A stretch of DNA of 64,000 nucleotides, taken from NCBI RefSeq assembly GCF_016865365.1, contig NZ_AP024469.1, positions 1,541,001-1,605,000 of the forward strand. Direction: 5' to 3'. Made by a program: the position numbers and the translations under genes. The notes under the pieces were generated by a model. The model saw nothing but the letters and a program-made list of their open reading frames with translations, was not told where the DNA came from and searched no databases. The stretch is from Geobacter sp. SVR. GTDB lineage: Bacteria; Desulfobacterota; Desulfuromonadia; Geobacterales; Pseudopelobacteraceae. Below, in pieces: positions 5,283-20,911 of this stretch; within the stretch, counting starts at the first letter, position 1; every line of letters begins with the position of its first letter.

Positions 5283-5549
5283 ATGGAGTGGCACAAGCAT
5301 CTGAAGCTGATGTGCCTGATGTTGGCGGTTCTGGTCCTGGCCTGGGAGGCTCCGGGCCGTGCCCAGCCGGTGAAAGATGTACAAACCGGCATTCAGGGGG
5401 ACGCAGCCACGGAAACGAAAAAGCCGGCTCGCCAGCGGAGGCAGGAGGCCCAAAAGCGTTTTCAGGATGCGCTGGAAGCACGAAACGCCAGCATCGCAGC
5501 CGGAGACGCCGCAGCGCCCGATAAAGGCGGCAAGGGGGTGAAAAAATGA
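5283..5549 (+). CDS. Small exported protein preceding the multicopper oxidase, 88 aa
   Basis: The ATG at 5283 follows AAAGGAGGT by a few bases. The product has a signal peptide (KLMCLMLAVLVLAWEAPGRAQ) and a short, very charged mature part (KKPARQRRQEAQKRFQDALEARN), predicted helical. Its TGA overlaps the ATG of the multicopper oxidase (ATGA), so the two are probably translationally coupled. A role as chaperone, anchor or partner of the oxidase is inference from this coupling. I do not recognise a family. Confidence 0.7.
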   Translation: MEWHKHLKLMCLMLAVLVLAWEAPGRAQPVKDVQTGIQGDAATETKKPARQRRQEAQKRFQDALEARNASIAAGDAAAPDKGGKGVKK

Positions 5550-8500
5550 GTACCCCCAATCTTCTGTCCAAGGTTCTTTCTGTTGCAGCCTTGATTACGC
5601 TTACCGCTCCCCCGGTTCAGGCGGCAACCCCGACCGGCATCAATCCTGCTGTGGACATCAGCCTGCCCAACTATACCAACAGCCCGAATATCAGAAAGTT
5701 TGTCGATTCATTGCCAGGGCTGGGATATGCCAACCGGAACAATCTGGGACAATACATTCCCATAGCGGTTCCGGACAAAAATACCTATTCCGGTTCCGAT
5801 TATTACGAAATCGGGCTCAAGGACCACACCGAGCAGATGAACTCGGACCTGCCCTCCACAACGATCAGGGGCTATTACCAGATCAACGCCGGTGATCCCA
5901 ATGTATCGGCTCCCCATTACTTGGGCCCGCTGATCATCGCCAACCGCAACCGGCCGGTGCGGCTCAAGTTTTTCAACCAGCTTCCCACCGGCGCAGCCGG
6001 CAATCTGTCATTGCCGGTCGACACCACCGTCATGGGCACCGGCACCGGACCGCTGGGCGGTGCCGAAAAATATACCCAGAACCGGGCCACCATCCATCTC
6101 CACGGTGGCTTCACCCCCTGGATCAGCGACGGTACCCCCCATCAGTGGATTACACCCGCCAATGATTCTACCTCCTATAAAAAAGGGGCCAGCTTCCAGA
6201 ACGTGCCCGACATGATCAACGGTTCCGGCATTCCCTGCAAAGGGGGAGCAACCTGCTACACACCGAGCCCGGGCGACGGGATCGGAACATTCTACTATCC
6301 CAATCAGCAGAGTGGCCGGCTGATGTTCTACCACGACCACGCTTACGGCATTACACGATTGAACGTCTATGCCGGCGAGGCGGCCGGCTACCTGCTGACG
6401 GACCAGGTCGAGGAAGACCTGATCGCCGGCACCAACGTCTCCGGCGGAAACCCGGCCAGTGCCAGGATTCTGCCCGATCTGGGCATAGCCGAATACCGCT
6501 ACGGTATTCCGTTGATCATCCAGGACAAGACTTTTGTCAATGATAACACCACCAATCCCCACCCCAGTTTTGCGAATACCGGTGCAACCCCCACAGCCAA
6601 GACCTCGCTCGTGGACCCGCTCTGGTACACCCATGTGCCCGGCAGCCCCGGCGGAAGTCTCTGGCTGCCGCACGAGTATCTGCCCAACGAGAACATCTAT
6701 GACCCGAGCGGATTCAACGTCATGGGCAGGTGGGACTACGGCCCCTGGATGATCCCGCCCATGCTGGCGCTGAACAACACCCTGCCCAGCCCGACCATCG
6801 TGCCGGAAGCCTTCATGGATACTCCGGTCGTCAACGGTACCGCCTATCCGTACCTGGAACTGCCGTCGACAGCGGTGCGTTTCCGCATCCTGAATGCCTG
6901 CAACGACAGGATGCTGAACCTGCAGCTGTACAAGGCGGAACCGCTGACGGTGGTTGTCGGTAACGGTGGCTCCGGGTACACCGCTCCGACAGTTACCTTT
7001 TCCGCCCCTGCGAGCGGTGTAACGGCCACCGGAACCGCAGTGCTGTCCAACGGTATCATTACCGGGATCACGGTTACCAACCCCGGCGCCGGGTATACCT
7101 CTGCCCCGACAATAACCATCACGGATACCGGCAGCGGCAGCGGCGCCACCGCGTATGCCACACTCGGCACGGAACTCAGGATGGTACCCGCCAGCCCGAA
7201 TCCCGCCTATCCGACCTGGCCGGTGGACGGCAGACCGGGCGGTGTGCCCGATCCGACCACCGCCGGTCCCACTATGTACCAGATCGGCAATGAAACCGGC
7301 TTTCTGGCCAAGGTTGCGGTTGTTCCGCCGCAGCCGGTGGATTTCGACTACAACCGCAGAAGCGTTACCTTCGGCGGCGTCACCAGCAAGGCATTGCTTC
7401 TGCCGCCTGCCGTACGTGCGGATGTGGTCGTCGATCTTTCCGGTTACAACGACGGCGACACGCTGATTCTCTACAATGATGCACCGGCACCGATGCCGTT
7501 GTACGACACGCGCTACGATTACTTCACCGGTGCCCCGGATCAGACAGGTATCGGCGGCGCACCGTCAACGCCGCCCGGTTTCGGTCCAAACACCCGCACC
7601 ATCATGCAGATCCGCATCAAAGGTGCCAAGGGAACCCCCTATGACGTGGCCGCCCTGCAAACCGCCCTGCCAAAGGCCTTTGCCGTCGGCCAGGAACATC
7701 CCCTGGTACCGGCAGCAGCTTACAACGACGCCTATGGCACCACCTATCAGAACATCTTCGCCAACAGCGTCGATGAAACCTTGAACACAACCGGCACAGC
7801 CCAATCGGTATCCAGGGTAATGACGGAGCTGCCCGGCTTCGGCTACACTACGCCCCCCACCGTCTCGTTCTACGGCGGTTTCCCTGTCGGCTGCGTGGCT
7901 CCCGCCTGCACCCCCGCTACCGCCACCGCAACCCTGAACGGCGTAACCGGCATTACGCTGGTGACTCCCGGCAGCGGCTGTACCGCGCCTCCGACCGTTA
8001 CCATCACCCCGGCAGCCGGTGGTGGAGGGACCGGCGCCACCGCTGCGGCCACCGTGTCGGGAGGTGTGGTCACTACCGTTACGATTACCAATCCCGGCTC
8101 CAATTACCTCCAGGCACCGACGATCAGCTTCACCGGCGGCTGTACCGTGACTCCCACGGCAGTGAGCAATGTGACCGTCGGATCAGTGGGCACGATCAAT
8201 CTGACCAATGCCGGCTCGGGCTACATCTCTGCTCCCCGCGTTTATATTACCGGCGGTGGCGGCACCGGCGCCATGGCGGCAGCCCTGTTGAACGGCGCCA
8301 TGATCATGACCGGCAAGAATCTGGTGGAGGGCCTGGATATGGAGTTCGGGCGCATGAATGCCGTACTCGGCTCCACCCCCAATCCCCTGGCCCCGACCGT
8401 CGGAGCCGGACCGGTTATCGGCGCCAGCTTCTATGTCGACCCCCCCACCGAGATCATGAATGCGGGCGAAACGGTGCTGTGGCGCCTGAATCACCTGGGA

Positions 8501-11182
8501 GTCGATTCCCATGCCATCCATTTCCACCTCTTCGAGGTGCAGGTGGTCAACCGGGTCGACTGGACCAACACCATCAAACCTCCCTACGATGACGAGATCG
8601 GCTGGAAGGAAACCATCCGGACCAACCCCTTCGAAGACATCATCCTGGCGATACGTCCCAAGGCGATGCATCTTCCCTTTACCATTCCCGACAGTGTCCG
8701 CCTGCTGGACGTTACCTCGCCGGCCGGCTCCACCACCATGTTCCAGCCGGTACTGCCCCCGCCGGGAATGCCGGCAGTGGCCCAGATCACCAATGTCATG
8801 ACCAACTTCGGCTGGGAGTACGTCTGGCATTGCCACTTGCTGGGGCATGAGGAAAACGACATGATGCGCCCGGTGGTCCTGCTGCCCGGCACCCCTGTGG
8901 CTAACGTAAGCCCGGCCTCGCGGGCCTTTGCCGCACAACTGGTCGGCACGAGCAGTCCGGCCCAGGCCGTGACGCTGAGCGACAACGGGTTGCCCGGCAC
9001 CCAGTCGCTGGTCATCAGGAGCATCACGATTACCGGCACCAATGCCGGTGACTTCGCCCAGAACAATGCCTGCGACGCCAGCCTTGCACCGGGTACCAAT
9101 TGCGCGATCAATGTCACGTTCACCCCGACAGCCGTAGGCAACCGGAGTGCATCGCTGGTGATAGCCAGTAACGATCCGGCCCGTCCGACGGTCACGGTTC
9201 CGCTGACCGGCACCGGTTCCGTGGCAGCCGCGGCCCCGACCAACCTGACGGCCAAGATCACATCAACCACGGGCATTACCCTGAGCTGGACCGACAACTC
9301 CAACAACGAAACCAGCTTCGCGATCTGGAGCTCCATCGATGGCGGGGCCTTTGCGCAGATCGGCACGGTTACCCGGACCGGCACCGGTACGACCGGTACC
9401 GGGGGCACGGTTACCTTCGTTCACAACGGCCTGACAAGCGGCAGCACCTATGCCTACTACGTTACCGCCGTTAGTGCGACCGGGGCATCTCCGCCGTCCA
9501 ATACCGTCTCGCTGGTGATGGGGCTGGGCATCGATGCCGCGGTGTGGCGCGATGCTTCCGCGATCAGTACCATCACCACCCCGGCTTTCAGCACCATTGC
9601 GCCGAACGAACTGCTGCTGGCGTTCATTTCGGCAGGCAACCAGACCGCCACCTCTCCGGCAGCAACCGCCAGCGGGGTAACGATCAGCGGCGGCGGACTA
9701 ACCTGGACACTGGTCCAGCGTACCAATACCCAGCGGGGCACCGCCGAGATCTGGCGCGCTTTAGCCCCAGCCGCCCTTACCAACCGGACAGTGACCGCAA
9801 CCTTCAACCAGACCATGTCATCGGCTTCGATTACCCTGGTAAGCTTCATCGGGGCCGATGCAACCGGCACCAACGGTTCGGGAGCCATCGGAGCGACCGG
9901 TACTGCCAACGCCGCAACAGGCGCACCATCAGCCTCCCTGGTCACCACCCGTAATAACTCCTGGATTTTCGGGGTCGGCAATGACTGGGACGGCGCCACC
10001 GCCCGCACTCTCGGAGCCAACCAGACCATGGTGCATGAGTGGCTGGCCGCGACGGGGGACACCTACTGGACTCAGCGGCTGACCACTCCCACGGCAGCGG
10101 CCGGCACCACGGTGACCATCAACGACACTGCGCCGACCAACCACCGCTACAACCTGAGCACCGTGGAAATCAGGACGCCGCAGCCCCCGGGTCCACCGGT
10201 AGCGGGCGTATCGACCGCGGCGCTGACCTTTGCCAATCAGTCTCTGACAACAACCAGCACTCCCCAGATGGTGACGCTGCTCAACAAGGGAGGGGCCGCT
10301 CTGACCATCAACAGCATTGCCCTCAGCGGCACCAACGCCGCCGATTTTACCCAATCCAACACCTGCGGCACCAGTCTGGCCGCAGGAACCAGTTGCACCA
10401 TCAACGTCAGTTTCAAACCGACCATACTGGGCAATCTCGCGGCATCACTCAACATCAGCAGCAGTGATCCTGCCACGCCGCTGCTGACCGTATCCTTGAG
10501 CGGCACAGCCGTAGCAGTCGGCTCCATGCTGGCCATCGATGTCAATACCTCCACCGATGCCACCGCCATCCAGGCCATGACCAGCCCAGCATTTTCCACT
10601 ACCGCTGGCAACGAACTGCTGCTGGCTTTCGTCTCGGCCAGCAATCCGACCGCCACGACACCCGCGACTACCGTTAACAGTGTCACCGGCGGAGGGCTGA
10701 CCTGGGTGCTGGTAGCCCGGACCAATACCCAGCGCGGTACCGCCGAGATCTGGCGGGCCTTCACCCCCACCGTGCTGACCAACGCGCGGGTAACCGCAAC
10801 CTTGAATCAGAATGTGCCGTCAGGTGCTATCACCGTCGTGTCCTTCACCGGGGTCGACACCACCGGCACCAACGGTTCCGGGGCCATCGGCGCGACAGCC
10901 AGCGCCAACGCTCCGAGCGGCGCTCCCACGGCCTCCCTGGTCACCACCCGCAACAACTCCTGGGTGTTCGGGGTCGGCAATGACTGGACTTTCAACGTAG
11001 CCCGCACGCTGGGGCCGAACCAGGCCATGGTGCACGAGTATGTCTGTCCCACCTGGGATACCTATTGGGTGCAGCGGCAAAACAGCACCACGCCGCTGGC
11101 TGGCACCACGGTCACCATCAACGATACGGCACCGACCACCGACATGTACAACCTGACCCTGGTGGAAGTCAGAACGCCGTAG
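5546..11182 (+). CDS. Giant secreted multicopper oxidase (OmpB-like) with Ig-like C-terminal modules, 1878 aa
   Basis: A signal peptide ending near VQAA precedes a laccase/manganese-oxidase-type core. All four copper-binding motifs are visible: HLH at 184-186, HDH at 263-265, HxxHxH at 989-994, and HCHLLGHEENDMM starting at 1095, which supplies the type 1 Cys, His and Met. The core is interrupted by two blocks of Gly-rich beta repeats of the type GSGYTAPTVT (about 466-541 and 757-915). The C-terminal half holds an ASH/choice-of-anchor-D-like domain (1117-1227), a fibronectin III domain (about 1228-1322) and a module of about 220 aa (1326-1548). A second ASH-like domain (1550-1657) and a second copy of the module (1659-1878) follow. 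Geobacter OmpB/OmpC are outer-surface multicopper oxidases linked to Fe(III) and Mn(IV) oxide reduction; a similar role here is inference. No sorting signal is seen at the C-terminus. Confidence 0.88.
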   Translation: MSTPNLLSKVLSVAALITLTAPPVQAATPTGINPAVDISLPNYTNSPNIRKFVDSLPGLGYANRNNLGQYIPIAVPDKNTYSGSDYYEIGLKDHTEQMNSDLPSTTIRGYYQINAGDPNVSAPHYLGPLIIANRNRPVRLKFFNQLPTGAAGNLSLPVDTTVMGTGTGPLGGAEKYTQNRATIHLHGGFTPWISDGTPHQWITPANDSTSYKKGASFQNVPDMINGSGIPCKGGATCYTPSPGDGIGTFYYPNQQSGRLMFYHDHAYGITRLNVYAGEAAGYLLTDQVEEDLIAGTNVSGGNPASARILPDLGIAEYRYGIPLIIQDKTFVNDNTTNPHPSFANTGATPTAKTSLVDPLWYTHVPGSPGGSLWLPHEYLPNENIYDPSGFNVMGRWDYGPWMIPPMLALNNTLPSPTIVPEAFMDTPVVNGTAYPYLELPSTAVRFRILNACNDRMLNLQLYKAEPLTVVVGNGGSGYTAPTVTFSAPASGVTATGTAVLSNGIITGITVTNPGAGYTSAPTITITDTGSGSGATAYATLGTELRMVPASPNPAYPTWPVDGRPGGVPDPTTAGPTMYQIGNETGFLAKVAVVPPQPVDFDYNRRSVTFGGVTSKALLLPPAVRADVVVDLSGYNDGDTLILYNDAPAPMPLYDTRYDYFTGAPDQTGIGGAPSTPPGFGPNTRTIMQIRIKGAKGTPYDVAALQTALPKAFAVGQEHPLVPAAAYNDAYGTTYQNIFANSVDETLNTTGTAQSVSRVMTELPGFGYTTPPTVSFYGGFPVGCVAPACTPATATATLNGVTGITLVTPGSGCTAPPTVTITPAAGGGGTGATAAATVSGGVVTTVTITNPGSNYLQAPTISFTGGCTVTPTAVSNVTVGSVGTINLTNAGSGYISAPRVYITGGGGTGAMAAALLNGAMIMTGKNLVEGLDMEFGRMNAVLGSTPNPLAPTVGAGPVIGASFYVDPPTEIMNAGETVLWRLNHLGVDSHAIHFHLFEVQVVNRVDWTNTIKPPYDDEIGWKETIRTNPFEDIILAIRPKAMHLPFTIPDSVRLLDVTSPAGSTTMFQPVLPPPGMPAVAQITNVMTNFGWEYVWHCHLLGHEENDMMRPVVLLPGTPVANVSPASRAFAAQLVGTSSPAQAVTLSDNGLPGTQSLVIRSITITGTNAGDFAQNNACDASLAPGTNCAINVTFTPTAVGNRSASLVIASNDPARPTVTVPLTGTGSVAAAAPTNLTAKITSTTGITLSWTDNSNNETSFAIWSSIDGGAFAQIGTVTRTGTGTTGTGGTVTFVHNGLTSGSTYAYYVTAVSATGASPPSNTVSLVMGLGIDAAVWRDASAISTITTPAFSTIAPNELLLAFISAGNQTATSPAATASGVTISGGGLTWTLVQRTNTQRGTAEIWRALAPAALTNRTVTATFNQTMSSASITLVSFIGADATGTNGSGAIGATGTANAATGAPSASLVTTRNNSWIFGVGNDWDGATARTLGANQTMVHEWLAATGDTYWTQRLTTPTAAAGTTVTINDTAPTNHRYNLSTVEIRTPQPPGPPVAGVSTAALTFANQSLTTTSTPQMVTLLNKGGAALTINSIALSGTNAADFTQSNTCGTSLAAGTSCTINVSFKPTILGNLAASLNISSSDPATPLLTVSLSGTAVAVGSMLAIDVNTSTDATAIQAMTSPAFSTTAGNELLLAFVSASNPTATTPATTVNSVTGGGLTWVLVARTNTQRGTAEIWRAFTPTVLTNARVTATLNQNVPSGAITVVSFTGVDTTGTNGSGAIGATASANAPSGAPTASLVTTRNNSWVFGVGNDWTFNVARTLGPNQAMVHEYVCPTWDTYWVQRQNSTTPLAGTTVTINDTAPTTDMYNLTLVEVRTP

Positions 11183-18100: not shown

Positions 18101-18604
18101 CTATTCCTTGAAGGCCCGCATCATCAGCTCATAATCCTCCAGAAGAGACTGAAGGTCTTCCTCGTGCTCAACCTCCTGCTCCAGAATCTGCAGCACCATG
18201 TTGTAGGTGACCGGATCCTTGTCCCGCGTCAGATCCATCAGCCGCTTATAGACCCCGATGGCACACTGTTCGCCCTTGATATTCTGTACCAGCAGGGTTT
18301 TTACAAAGGGATCGTCCGGCGCGTCATACCCGCAGTTGGAGAGCTGATACCAATCGGCCGGCGTGGTCACCGGTGTGCCCCCCAGTTGGATGATTCGCAT
18401 GGCCACCATGTCGGCATGCAGCAGCTCCTCGGTGGCGTGCTGCAGCAGCTCGGCCCCTACGGCATCTTTCATGGGGCCCTTGACCAGCTTTGCACCCAGC
18501 CAGTACTGGTAATACGCCAGCCACTCGTCGCAATATGCCCGCCGGAGCAGGTCCAGCAGTTCATCCACGTTCATGCCGATTATTTCGCGTCCTTTGGATC
18601 CCAT
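18101..18604 (-). CDS. Ferritin-like (Dps/bacterioferritin-like) diiron protein, 167 aa
   Basis: Predicted four-helix bundle with glutamate and histidine ligands in the expected places: CDEWLAYYQYW, HATEELLHADM, KGEQCAIGVYK and LEQEVEHEEDL. This is the ferritin-like diiron pattern, probably for iron storage or peroxide detoxification in the cytoplasm. The C-terminal rubredoxin domain of rubrerythrin is absent. GGAGGCAAGC precedes the ATG. It is followed on the same strand by no gene before 17977, but the Sec-thioredoxin gene lies just upstream, so a redox-stress grouping is possible. Confidence 0.78.
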   Translation of the reverse strand: MGSKGREIIGMNVDELLDLLRRAYCDEWLAYYQYWLGAKLVKGPMKDAVGAELLQHATEELLHADMVAMRIIQLGGTPVTTPADWYQLSNCGYDAPDDPFVKTLLVQNIKGEQCAIGVYKRLMDLTRDKDPVTYNMVLQILEQEVEHEEDLQSLLEDYELMMRAFKE

Positions 18605-18687
18605 GCTTGCCTCCTGAGTGTGGTTCTCGAGCTGCGATCAGGCCAGTATAACCAAAAATCGCCAATGTTCAATACAAACCCGATCTC

Positions 18688-19143
18688 CTATGGCGTCCCG
18701 GACTGCCGCTGGTGCTGATGTATCCACGACAGGATTGATTCCGTACTCCTCGTCCCGGATATCTGGGCGATGATGTGCCCGTTTTTCAACAGGAAAAGGG
18801 CGGGAATGCCCTTCACACCAAACCTGGCTGCCAGCGCCCGGTTTTCCTCGGTATTCACCGTTACCACCGCACCCGCGCCGGCCAGACTTTCGGCCACCTG
18901 TCGCACCACCGGTGCGAACGAGACGCAGTGGGGTCACCAGGGAGCCCAGAATTCCGCCAGGATGAAGCCCTGGCAGTTTCGGACAAAGGCATCGAAGGTT
19001 GTATCACTGAGCGGAACCGGATGAATATACAGTACGGGCAAGGCTGACCCGCAGCTGCCGCATCGCCCCGATATCCCTTCACGGGCGTCCGGGACCCGGT
19101 TTGCCGTTCCACAGGATGTGCACGTTATCACATGACCGGACAT
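18688..19143 (-). CDS. trxC: Thioredoxin 2-like selenoprotein, in-frame TGA (Sec) at the active site
   Basis: A 151-residue reading frame when the TGA at 18936-18934 is read as selenocysteine (U70). The N-terminal zinc ribbon has C8, C11, C28 and C31 (ITCTSCG and RCGSCG), the mark of thioredoxin 2. The thioredoxin fold follows: FILAEFWAPW, then U-P-H-C in place of the usual CGPC, then VSFAPVVRQVAESL and the cis-proline segment FGVKGIPALFLLKNG. The frame stays open and conserved on both sides of the TGA, and the stop replaces exactly the catalytic cysteine. GAGGAGGTGAC lies before the ATG at 19143. A perfect hairpin sits at SECIS distance. An automatic annotation would split this into two fragments. 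A nonsense mutation is the alternative. Confidence 0.85.
18901..18936 (-). promoter_or_regulatory. Candidate bacterial SECIS element after the Sec codon
   Basis: Counting from the base after TGA, positions 17-23 (TCGCACC) pair perfectly with 27-33 (GGTGCGA) around a GGT apical loop. The loop starts about 23 bases from the TGA and offers the G and U expected for SelB binding. CCAC at positions 3-6 can also pair with GTGG at 37-40 to extend the stem. Confidence 0.7.
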
Positions 19144-19234
19144 CAGTGTCACCTCCTCAATACGGCTTGTATTTTTCAAAGTATAGAAGAAAAACGGAAA
19201 GGAATCAAAAGGGGGGGCAGGGTCAAGATGTGAA

Positions 19235-19260
19235 AAGCCCCGGTCGGATGACCGGGGCTT
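19235..19260 (-). terminator. Rho-independent terminator of the fumarase gene
   Basis: AAGCCCCGGT (19235-19244) pairs with ACCGGGGCTT (19251-19260). On the minus strand the stem is followed by TTTT. It lies 26 bases beyond the fumarase stop. Confidence 0.8.
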
Positions 19261-19285
19261 GGTGATGCGGCCGTATCGGGAACGG

Positions 19286-20911
19286 TTACAGGCCCAACTG
19301 CTTGAAGAAGTCATTGCCTTTGTCATCGACCAGGATGAAGGCCGGGAAGTTCTCCACCTCGATCATCCAGACCGCCTCCATTCCCAATTCGGGGAAATCG
19401 ATGCATTCCACCCTCTTGATGTTCTCTTCGGCCAGCACGGCGGCCGGGCCGCCGATAGAGCCGAGGTAGAACCCGCCGTATTTCTTGCAGGCATCGGTCA
19501 CCTGCTGGCTGCGGTTGCCCTTGGCGATCATGATCAGCGAGCCCCCTTTGGACTGCAGCTCGTCCACATAGCTGTCCATGCGGCCGGCGGTGGTGGGGCC
19601 GAAGGAGCCGGAGGGTTTGCCCTTGGGAGTTTTTGCCGGGCCGGCGTAATAGATGGGATGGTTGAGCAGGTACTCCGGCAGCGGCTTGCCGCTGTCCATG
19701 ATCTCCTTGAATTTGGCGTGGGCGATATCGCGGCCGACCACGATCGTACCCGAAAGCAGGAGCGGGGTGGATACCGGGTGCTTGGTCAGCTCGGCCAGGA
19801 CCTCTTGGATGGGGCGGTTCAGGTTAACCTTGACGCCATGTTCATGTTTTCCGCGGTACTGCTCGGGGATCAGCCGGCCGGGATTGCGGTCGAGTTCTTC
19901 CACGAACAGGCCGTCCCTGGTGATCTTGGCCTTGATGTTGCGGTCGGCCGAGCAGGAAACCGCCATGCCGACGGGGCAGGAGGCGCCGTGGCGCGGCAGG
20001 CGGATCACCCGCACGTCGTGGGCAAAGTACTTGCCGCCGAACTGGGCGCCGATGCCGAGCTTCTGTGCCGCTGCCAGGAGCCGGTTTTCCAGCTCGATAT
20101 CGCGGAAGGCCTGACCATGCGCGTTGCCCTTGGTGGGCAGCCCGTCCAGTTCCCTGGCAGTGGCGAGCTTGACGGTCTTCATGCAGGCGTCGGCCGAGGT
20201 GCCGCCGATCACGAAGGCGATGTGGTAGGGGGGGCAGGCGGCTGTGCCGAGATATTTCATCTTCTCGACCAGAAACTTCTCCAATTTTTCGGGGGTCAGA
20301 AGCGCCTTGGTTTCCTGGAAGAGCATGGTCTTGTTGGCTGAACCGCCCCCTTTGGCCATGAACAGGAACTTGTAGTAGTCGCCATCGGTTGCCATGATGT
20401 CGATCTGGGCCGGCAAATTGGTGCCGGTGTTTTTCTCTTCGTACATGTCGAGCGCAACGGTCTGGGAGTAGCGCAGGTTCTCCTCGGTGTAGGTCTTGTA
20501 GACCCCCTTGGAGAGCCATTCCTCATCCTTGACGCCGGTCCAGATCTGCTGCCCCTTCTTGGCGACAACAGTGGCGGTGCCGGTATCCTGGCAAACGGGC
20601 AGTTCCAGGTTTGCGGCAATTTCCGCATTGCGCAGAAACGCCATGGCAACACCCTTGTCGTTCATGGATGCTTCGGGATCGCTCAGGATCTTGGCAACCT
20701 GCTCATTGTGCGACGGGCGCAACAGGAACGAAACGTCCCGCATGGCTTCGTTGGCCAGAATGGAGAGCGCTTCCGGACAGACCCTCACAACATCCTTATC
20801 GGCGAATTTCTCGACGGTCACATATTTCTCTGAGCCCTCGATCTTGCGGTAGCTGGTTTCGTCCTTGCCCAAAGGAAACGGGTCCTGGTAGGTGAATTCG
20901 GGGGTTGCCAT
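19286..20911 (-). CDS. fum: Fumarate hydratase, class I (iron-sulfur, one-chain type)
   Basis: Interconverts fumarate and malate in the TCA cycle. The protein has 541 aa, the length of FumA/FumB-type enzymes that join the alpha and beta parts in one chain. Cysteines suited to ligate the 4Fe-4S cluster occur in [17 protein letters not shown] and [14 protein letters not shown]. The beta-domain signatures [18 protein letters not shown] and [16 protein letters not shown] are present. The ATG at 20911 is favoured because AGGAG lies 8 bases upstream. The enzyme class is oxygen-sensitive and suits an anaerobe. Confidence 0.93.

Follow-up and report, generated by a model that had tools for sequence, protein, structure and literature searches.

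A zinc-ribbon (Trx2-like) thioredoxin gene of Geobacter sp. SVR with a UGA codon 70 very likely read as selenocysteine

Thioredoxins with a UxxC motif are an established family of selenoproteins (PMC9312934 and PMC13188914, in the portions of text available), and thioredoxin selenoproteins of Geobacter have been in print since 2006–2007. In the accessible part of PMC1794560, such a protein is given for G. sulfurreducens, G. metallireducens, and G. uraniireducens (one for G. uraniireducens) and, in that of PMC1914089, GSU3446 is named as a thioredoxin selenoprotein of Geobacter. As far as those parts describe them, these proteins are selenocysteine (Sec) thioredoxins encoded with TGA, as the product of the Trx2-like gene described here very probably is, and they come from similar organisms. 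In the genome labelled G126, one of the eight matches to PF00085 bears a TGA, and that one is a member of the Trx2-like family. We take G126 to be G. uraniireducens Rf4. With this single TGA-bearing thioredoxin in the Trx2-like family and the one protein given for G. uraniireducens in the accessible part of PMC1794560, the two families are very probably identical; the Trx2-like family would then very probably be that of the published Geobacter thioredoxin selenoproteins, an identity inferred from this correspondence. In the open-licence literature, within its accessible text, no mention was found of the zinc ribbon, nor of a selenoprotein motif UPHC. Another Sec-containing thioredoxin, like the Trx2-like protein in that respect, was reportedly assayed by Kim et al. 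in 2015, in work cited as reference 84 of PMC13188914; it is presumably a Treponema denticola protein.

The window (the whole stretch of 64,000 nt of Geobacter sp. SVR that was analyzed) contains the gene on its minus strand. The first-pass annotation had placed an in-frame TGA at the first active-site Cys, residue 70 of 151, and this is confirmed. The features, in positions of the window, are the following.

18688..19143, minus strand: Trx2-like gene of 151 codons with a TAG stop, predicted to encode a selenoprotein whose Sec is specified by codon 70 (translation, profile matches, orthologues)
19152..19158, minus strand: GAGGAGG, 8 nt ahead of the start codon and likely the ribosome-binding site (read from the sequence)
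19048..19125, minus strand: zinc ribbon (Pfam Zn_ribbon_Thio2) with C8, C11, C28, and C31 (Pfam match)
18718..19017, minus strand: thioredoxin domain (Pfam PF00085) (Pfam match; confident model, mean pLDDT 92.4)
18934..18936, minus strand: TGA codon 70, standing where the attacking Cys would be, in the motif U-P-H-C (translation; codon counts at 89 loci)
18901..18917, minus strand: likely bacterial SECIS hairpin, 7-bp stem UCGCACC/GGUGCGA, loop GGU, 23 nt from TGA to loop (folding, pair conservation)

The ATG (19143–19141) lies downstream of GAGGAGG, and the minus-strand translation of 18688–19143 contains a single in-frame TGA (residue 70), in the context AEFWAPW-U-PHCVSFAP. The redox pair is formed by U70 and C73 with two residues between them, which is the UxxC arrangement of thioredoxins. 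Frame 1 of the plus strand over the same interval has no thioredoxin motif and was rejected. In the window, the neighbors of the gene are a class I fumarase and a ferritin-like protein, one on each side; elsewhere in the window, an open frame of 1878 codons occupies 5546–11182 of the plus strand.

With C at residue 70 of the query, Pfam Thioredoxin matches residues 43–142 with 85.3 bits. The protein had been called thioredoxin 2 in the first-pass annotation; the zinc ribbon of Trx2 is present (Zn_ribbon_Thio2, residues 7–32, 34.0 bits for a cut-off of 27.1), but the best NCBIfam match, TrxC (NF008229), reaches 106.8 bits, likewise with C at residue 70, under the equivalog cut-off of 125, and the protein is therefore called Trx2-like here. 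In a 21-row alignment, the ribbon residues C8, C11, C28, and C31 are invariant, as are Cys73 and Pro114 (the conserved Pro of the cis-Pro loop). The AlphaFold2 model built on that alignment is confident (mean pLDDT 92.4), with a helix at 71–86 directly after residue 70; it predicts a thioredoxin fold with residue 70 at the start of the active-site helix.

Among known structures, TrxC proteins (PDB 7d6l, 3p2a, 2ppt) have the same zinc ribbon and thioredoxin domain, and the match to them covers almost the full length; multi-domain relatives of protein disulfide isomerase take the top two total scores in the PDB comparison. Compared with TrxC, Sec replaces Cys, Pro-His is found where 18 of the 27 Cys loci read outside the order have Gly-Pro, and Glu64 where five of six outside rows have Asp. 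The Pro-His dipeptide is shared with DsbA, in which the motif is CPHC and a large helical insertion is present. Unlike DsbA, the Trx2-like protein has a zinc ribbon, starting at residue 7, and is modeled without the large helical insertion; a DsbA domain is absent from the eight Pfam families matched at E 0.001.

Homologues were searched in 76 genomes of the family and in 141 genomes of the order, the latter with a threshold of E 1e-21 that would miss most ribbon-only fragments. The gene is present in 84 of the 141 genomes, with 89 loci in all. Of these, 77 have TGA as codon 70, eight have TGC, and four have TGT, with no other codon, so that TGA stands aligned with Cys at the same place, as is looked for in a bacterial selenoprotein; the alignment of homologues proposed in the first-pass annotation agrees with its reading. 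Since some rows are near-copies (identical proteins), the 77 TGA loci are not all independent. Among 12 named loci, the seven closest come from MAGs that bear the names Geobacter sp., Geobacteraceae, or Desulfuromonadaceae (51–58% identity). The UPHC motif noted at the outset occurs at all 77 TGA loci, and Pro-His is found also at 11 of the 12 Cys loci (Thr-His at the remaining one); the dipeptide does not, therefore, simply come with Sec, and its presence at the active site marks the order's version of the protein. With crude ORFs and flanks of ∼1.5 kb at some loci and 3 kb at others, the commonest neighbor cluster occurs at only 13 of the 89 loci, and the genomic context points to no partner.

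Downstream from the TGA, most loci share the sequence UUCGCACC-GGY-GGUGCG. At the 76 usable TGA loci (the decayed L083 being left out), the eight pairs of the putative hairpin are all kept in 69, seven are kept in six (the window among these), and six in one (mean 7.9); with the partner slid by 1–3 nt, the mean falls to 2.8–5.0. Pair 18–32 is C-G in 72 loci and U-A in four, pair 17–33 is U-A in 54, U-G in 20, A-U in one, and U-U in one, and the outermost pair, 16–34, is U-A in 54 and C-G in three. Both sides of a pair have changed from C-G to U-A at four loci, from U-A to A-U at one and, at the outermost pair, from U-A to C-G at three. The loop is GGC in 39, GGU in 35, GGG in one, and GUC in one. 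With the loci reduced to 20 distinct 19-mers, 153 of 160 cells are paired, a number attained by two of 2000 partner shuffles; the five double changes among these distinct hairpins are attained by 75 of 2000, which is weak support.

At +7, Ala is encoded by GCA in 74 of the 76 TGA loci (GCA makes up 20% of Ala codons in the rest of these genes) and, at +11, CGA makes up 50 of the 72 Arg codons (9% in the rest of the genes), an enrichment which argues that codon choice serves the hairpin. When codons are drawn at random for the same protein, the actual pairing is attained in a mean of 2.2% of draws (for the window, in 577 of 20000), and the energy of the window hairpin, −10.6 kcal/mol, is equalled by 10 of 3000 such recodings. 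Against dinucleotide shuffles, the 52-nt stretch folds no better (z −0.11, 83 of 200 as good); for a hairpin within a coding region, codon-preserving recoding is the better question to ask. In five of the 30 TGA loci folded (L020, L033, L034, L035, L056), a different hairpin is the structure of lowest energy. At the 12 Cys loci, eight of eight pairs are kept in L023 and L110, seven in three others, and three to five in the remaining seven. Several Cys loci fold stably in other ways, down to −23.7 kcal/mol, so that register and loop, and not stability alone, go with TGA. According to the available part of PMC13188914 (legend of Fig. 2), bacterial SECIS elements have a loop of 3–9 nt, a stem of 4–16 bp, a distance of 16–37 nt from the TGA, a G in the first two loop positions, and an energy of at most −7.5 kcal/mol; the window hairpin (3-nt loop with G first, 7 bp, 23 nt, −10.6 kcal/mol) lies within these limits as given there. 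An Rfam search of 18400–19400 at E 1 gave three matches, each scoring well below its gathering threshold and none on the hairpin.

The genome of Geobacter sp. SVR (4,717,360 bases in one contig, 99.98% complete) was searched for selA, selB, selC, and selD, as had been proposed with the first annotation, and all four are found: tRNA-Sec with 77.8 bits (cut-off 47), SelA with 602.8 (267.9), SelB with 327.9 for its main stretch (242.25), and SelD with 373 (125), at C1:3639376–3640299. SelD itself contains an in-frame TGA close to its N terminus (KAAG-stop-AAKLGPAGL) and is a likely second selenoprotein gene of this genome, hence a second sign that UGA is decoded there as Sec. Of the 12 matches to PF00085 in the genome, the Trx2-like gene is the only one with an internal stop. 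At C1:210502–231634, away from the window, lie four frames with a thioredoxin domain, all of 147 aa and with the same score of 60.1 bits; they are spaced by 6946–6948 bases, in an apparent tandem array of ∼6.95-kb units.

In the family, a SelB match is present in 26 of the 29 TGA genomes. The three others are G005 (52% complete), which has a tRNA-Sec, G017 (96%), and G040 (92%). In the drafts of G017 and G040 (about 60 and 200 contigs), there is no match for tRNA-Sec or SelB, and, in G017, no SelD over the cut-off. Missing stretches in these drafts may account for the absent matches; TGA without SelB or tRNA-Sec matches in these two genomes is, all the same, the main contrary result. The family contains also 11 genomes with Cys: G024 and G027 are without SelB and tRNA-Sec, and nine have both, so that most Cys forms occur in genomes seemingly still competent for Sec. 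Loss of the Sec machinery, considered as a cause of the Cys forms, was rejected for most of them (2 of 11 Cys genomes without SelB). Two SelB-domain matches over the cut-off occur in each of G043, G050, G052, and G053.

With TGA or Cys as the only codons at position 70, a conserved hairpin behind it, and the Sec machinery in the genome, the proposal of a probable selenoprotein is borne out: it is very likely that UGA codon 70 of this zinc-ribbon (Trx2-like) thioredoxin gene is read as selenocysteine, a reading drawn from comparative sequence data. The same codon could have arisen by a nonsense mutation, or by a sequencing error, in an ordinary CPHC thioredoxin, since a one-base change from a Cys codon suffices, Cys orthologues exist at 12 of the 89 loci, and two relatives are decayed. 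One of these, L083 (genome G096, which has SelB), is a TGA locus with further stops, including a second TGA shortly after codon 70; the other, L063 (genome G033), retains the zinc-ribbon part only, without the downstream half, and is excluded from the 89 loci. But the TGA is common to 77 of 89 loci across many genera, even if some rows are near-copies, it is accompanied by the hairpin (seven of the 12 Cys loci retain five or fewer of the eight pairs), and the genome is a nearly complete single contig. The two halves of the gene are, besides, under purifying selection: among 20 closely similar pairs, of which 18 are TGA-TGA, one is TGA-Cys, and one is Cys-Cys, dN/dS lies at 0.05–0.41 after codon 70 and 0.06–0.46 before it, so that the downstream half is kept as protein like the upstream half. 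Both sides of the TGA are, then, intact as first described, with zinc ribbon and thioredoxin domain each matched; decay of the downstream half in relatives, which was to count against the selenoprotein, is restricted to L083 and L063 and is countered by the selection seen in the 20 pairs. A chance mutation, judged unlikely from the start, or a sequencing error is on these counts hardly credible.

Since bacterial Sec insertion competes with termination, UGA 70 might also act mainly as a stop, so that the main product would be a zinc-ribbon fragment of 69 residues and full-length protein would be made only when selenium is ample. The N-terminal part does contain a complete zinc ribbon, and L063 retains just that part; the downstream half is, however, conserved as protein, with Cys73 and Pro114 invariant in 21 rows, and no other ribbon-only form appears among the 89 loci, although the threshold of E 1e-21 would miss most such fragments. 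We consider this very improbable. That UGA encodes a different residue, such as Trp under code 4, has nothing in its favor and deserves still less weight: Trp is found at codon 70 in none of the 89 orthologues and Cys in 12, TGA is also an ordinary stop (it ends eight of the 19 ORFs picked by length in the window), and tRNA-Sec, SelA, SelB, and SelD are all present.

With selenocysteine at UGA 70, the ribosome would meet the codon with the hairpin and its GGU loop 23 nt later; SelB carrying Sec-tRNA-Sec would bind the hairpin, and Sec would be inserted. By analogy with the thioredoxin family, Sec70 at the start of the active-site helix would attack a substrate disulfide, Cys73 would resolve the mixed selenide-sulfide, and the Sec70-Cys73 bond would be reduced again by the thioredoxin reductase of the cell, a presumed partner. 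The protein is presumed to be cytosolic. In DsbA, Pro-His makes the redox pair more oxidizing, whereas Sec tends to the opposite. The UPHC protein could conceivably form a class of its own, a fast selenol disulfide isomerase or a reductant for a dedicated partner and not a general thioredoxin, next to a separate UGHC Sec-Trx2 in genomes G235 and G337; we regard this combination as rather doubtful.

In a sample of the phylum, matches at E 1e-24 occur in 57 of 395 genomes, six of the 57 from the order. Of the 52 matches outside the order, 29 were read at codon 70 and the other 23 show no internal stop. Among those read, 27 have Cys (CGPC in the 18 with Gly-Pro) and two have TGA. The latter, L137 and L142, from G235 and G337 (one family, both genomes with SelB), are zinc-ribbon thioredoxins with TGA in UGHC; they stand apart from the Sec rows of the order on the tree and look like a second, separate Sec form. 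The tree is a quick protein tree of 94 rows with residue 70 masked and few columns; 37 of its 87 inner branches are open, and some of its rows are long, that of the window among these. Cys rows are nested in it among Sec rows. The Sec/Cys label requires five changes in all (at least two of these five are forced by starred branches), three of them within the order, and such counts alone cannot separate gain from loss of Sec. The simplest reading would be one gain of Sec in the order followed by three reversions to Cys (a group of 10, L023, and L110). In the accessible part of PMC1794560, no Sec/Cys change is given for its seven thioredoxins, unlike the three Sec-to-Cys reversions of this simplest reading; some reversions are described there as leaving SECIS-like structures. 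The intact hairpins of L023 and L110 resemble such fossil elements, as would be left by reversion. L023 (genome G054) has TGT at codon 70 with the hairpin intact, adjoins on the tree its TGA-bearing sister L014, and its genome has SelB and three tRNA-Sec matches; it looks like a recent reversion to Cys.

The kind of protein that the Trx2-like gene encodes is already known, and the gene, though well supported, represents no new kind. Because a gene caller that takes TGA as a stop splits or drops the gene, annotations of the enzyme may be wrong throughout the order. Sec was apparently gained in ancient times and then replaced three times by Cys, with the hairpin left over in two of the reverted genes; the 89 loci thus constitute a compact natural series, which may serve the questions of what Sec brings to a thioredoxin and of how selenoproteins are lost.
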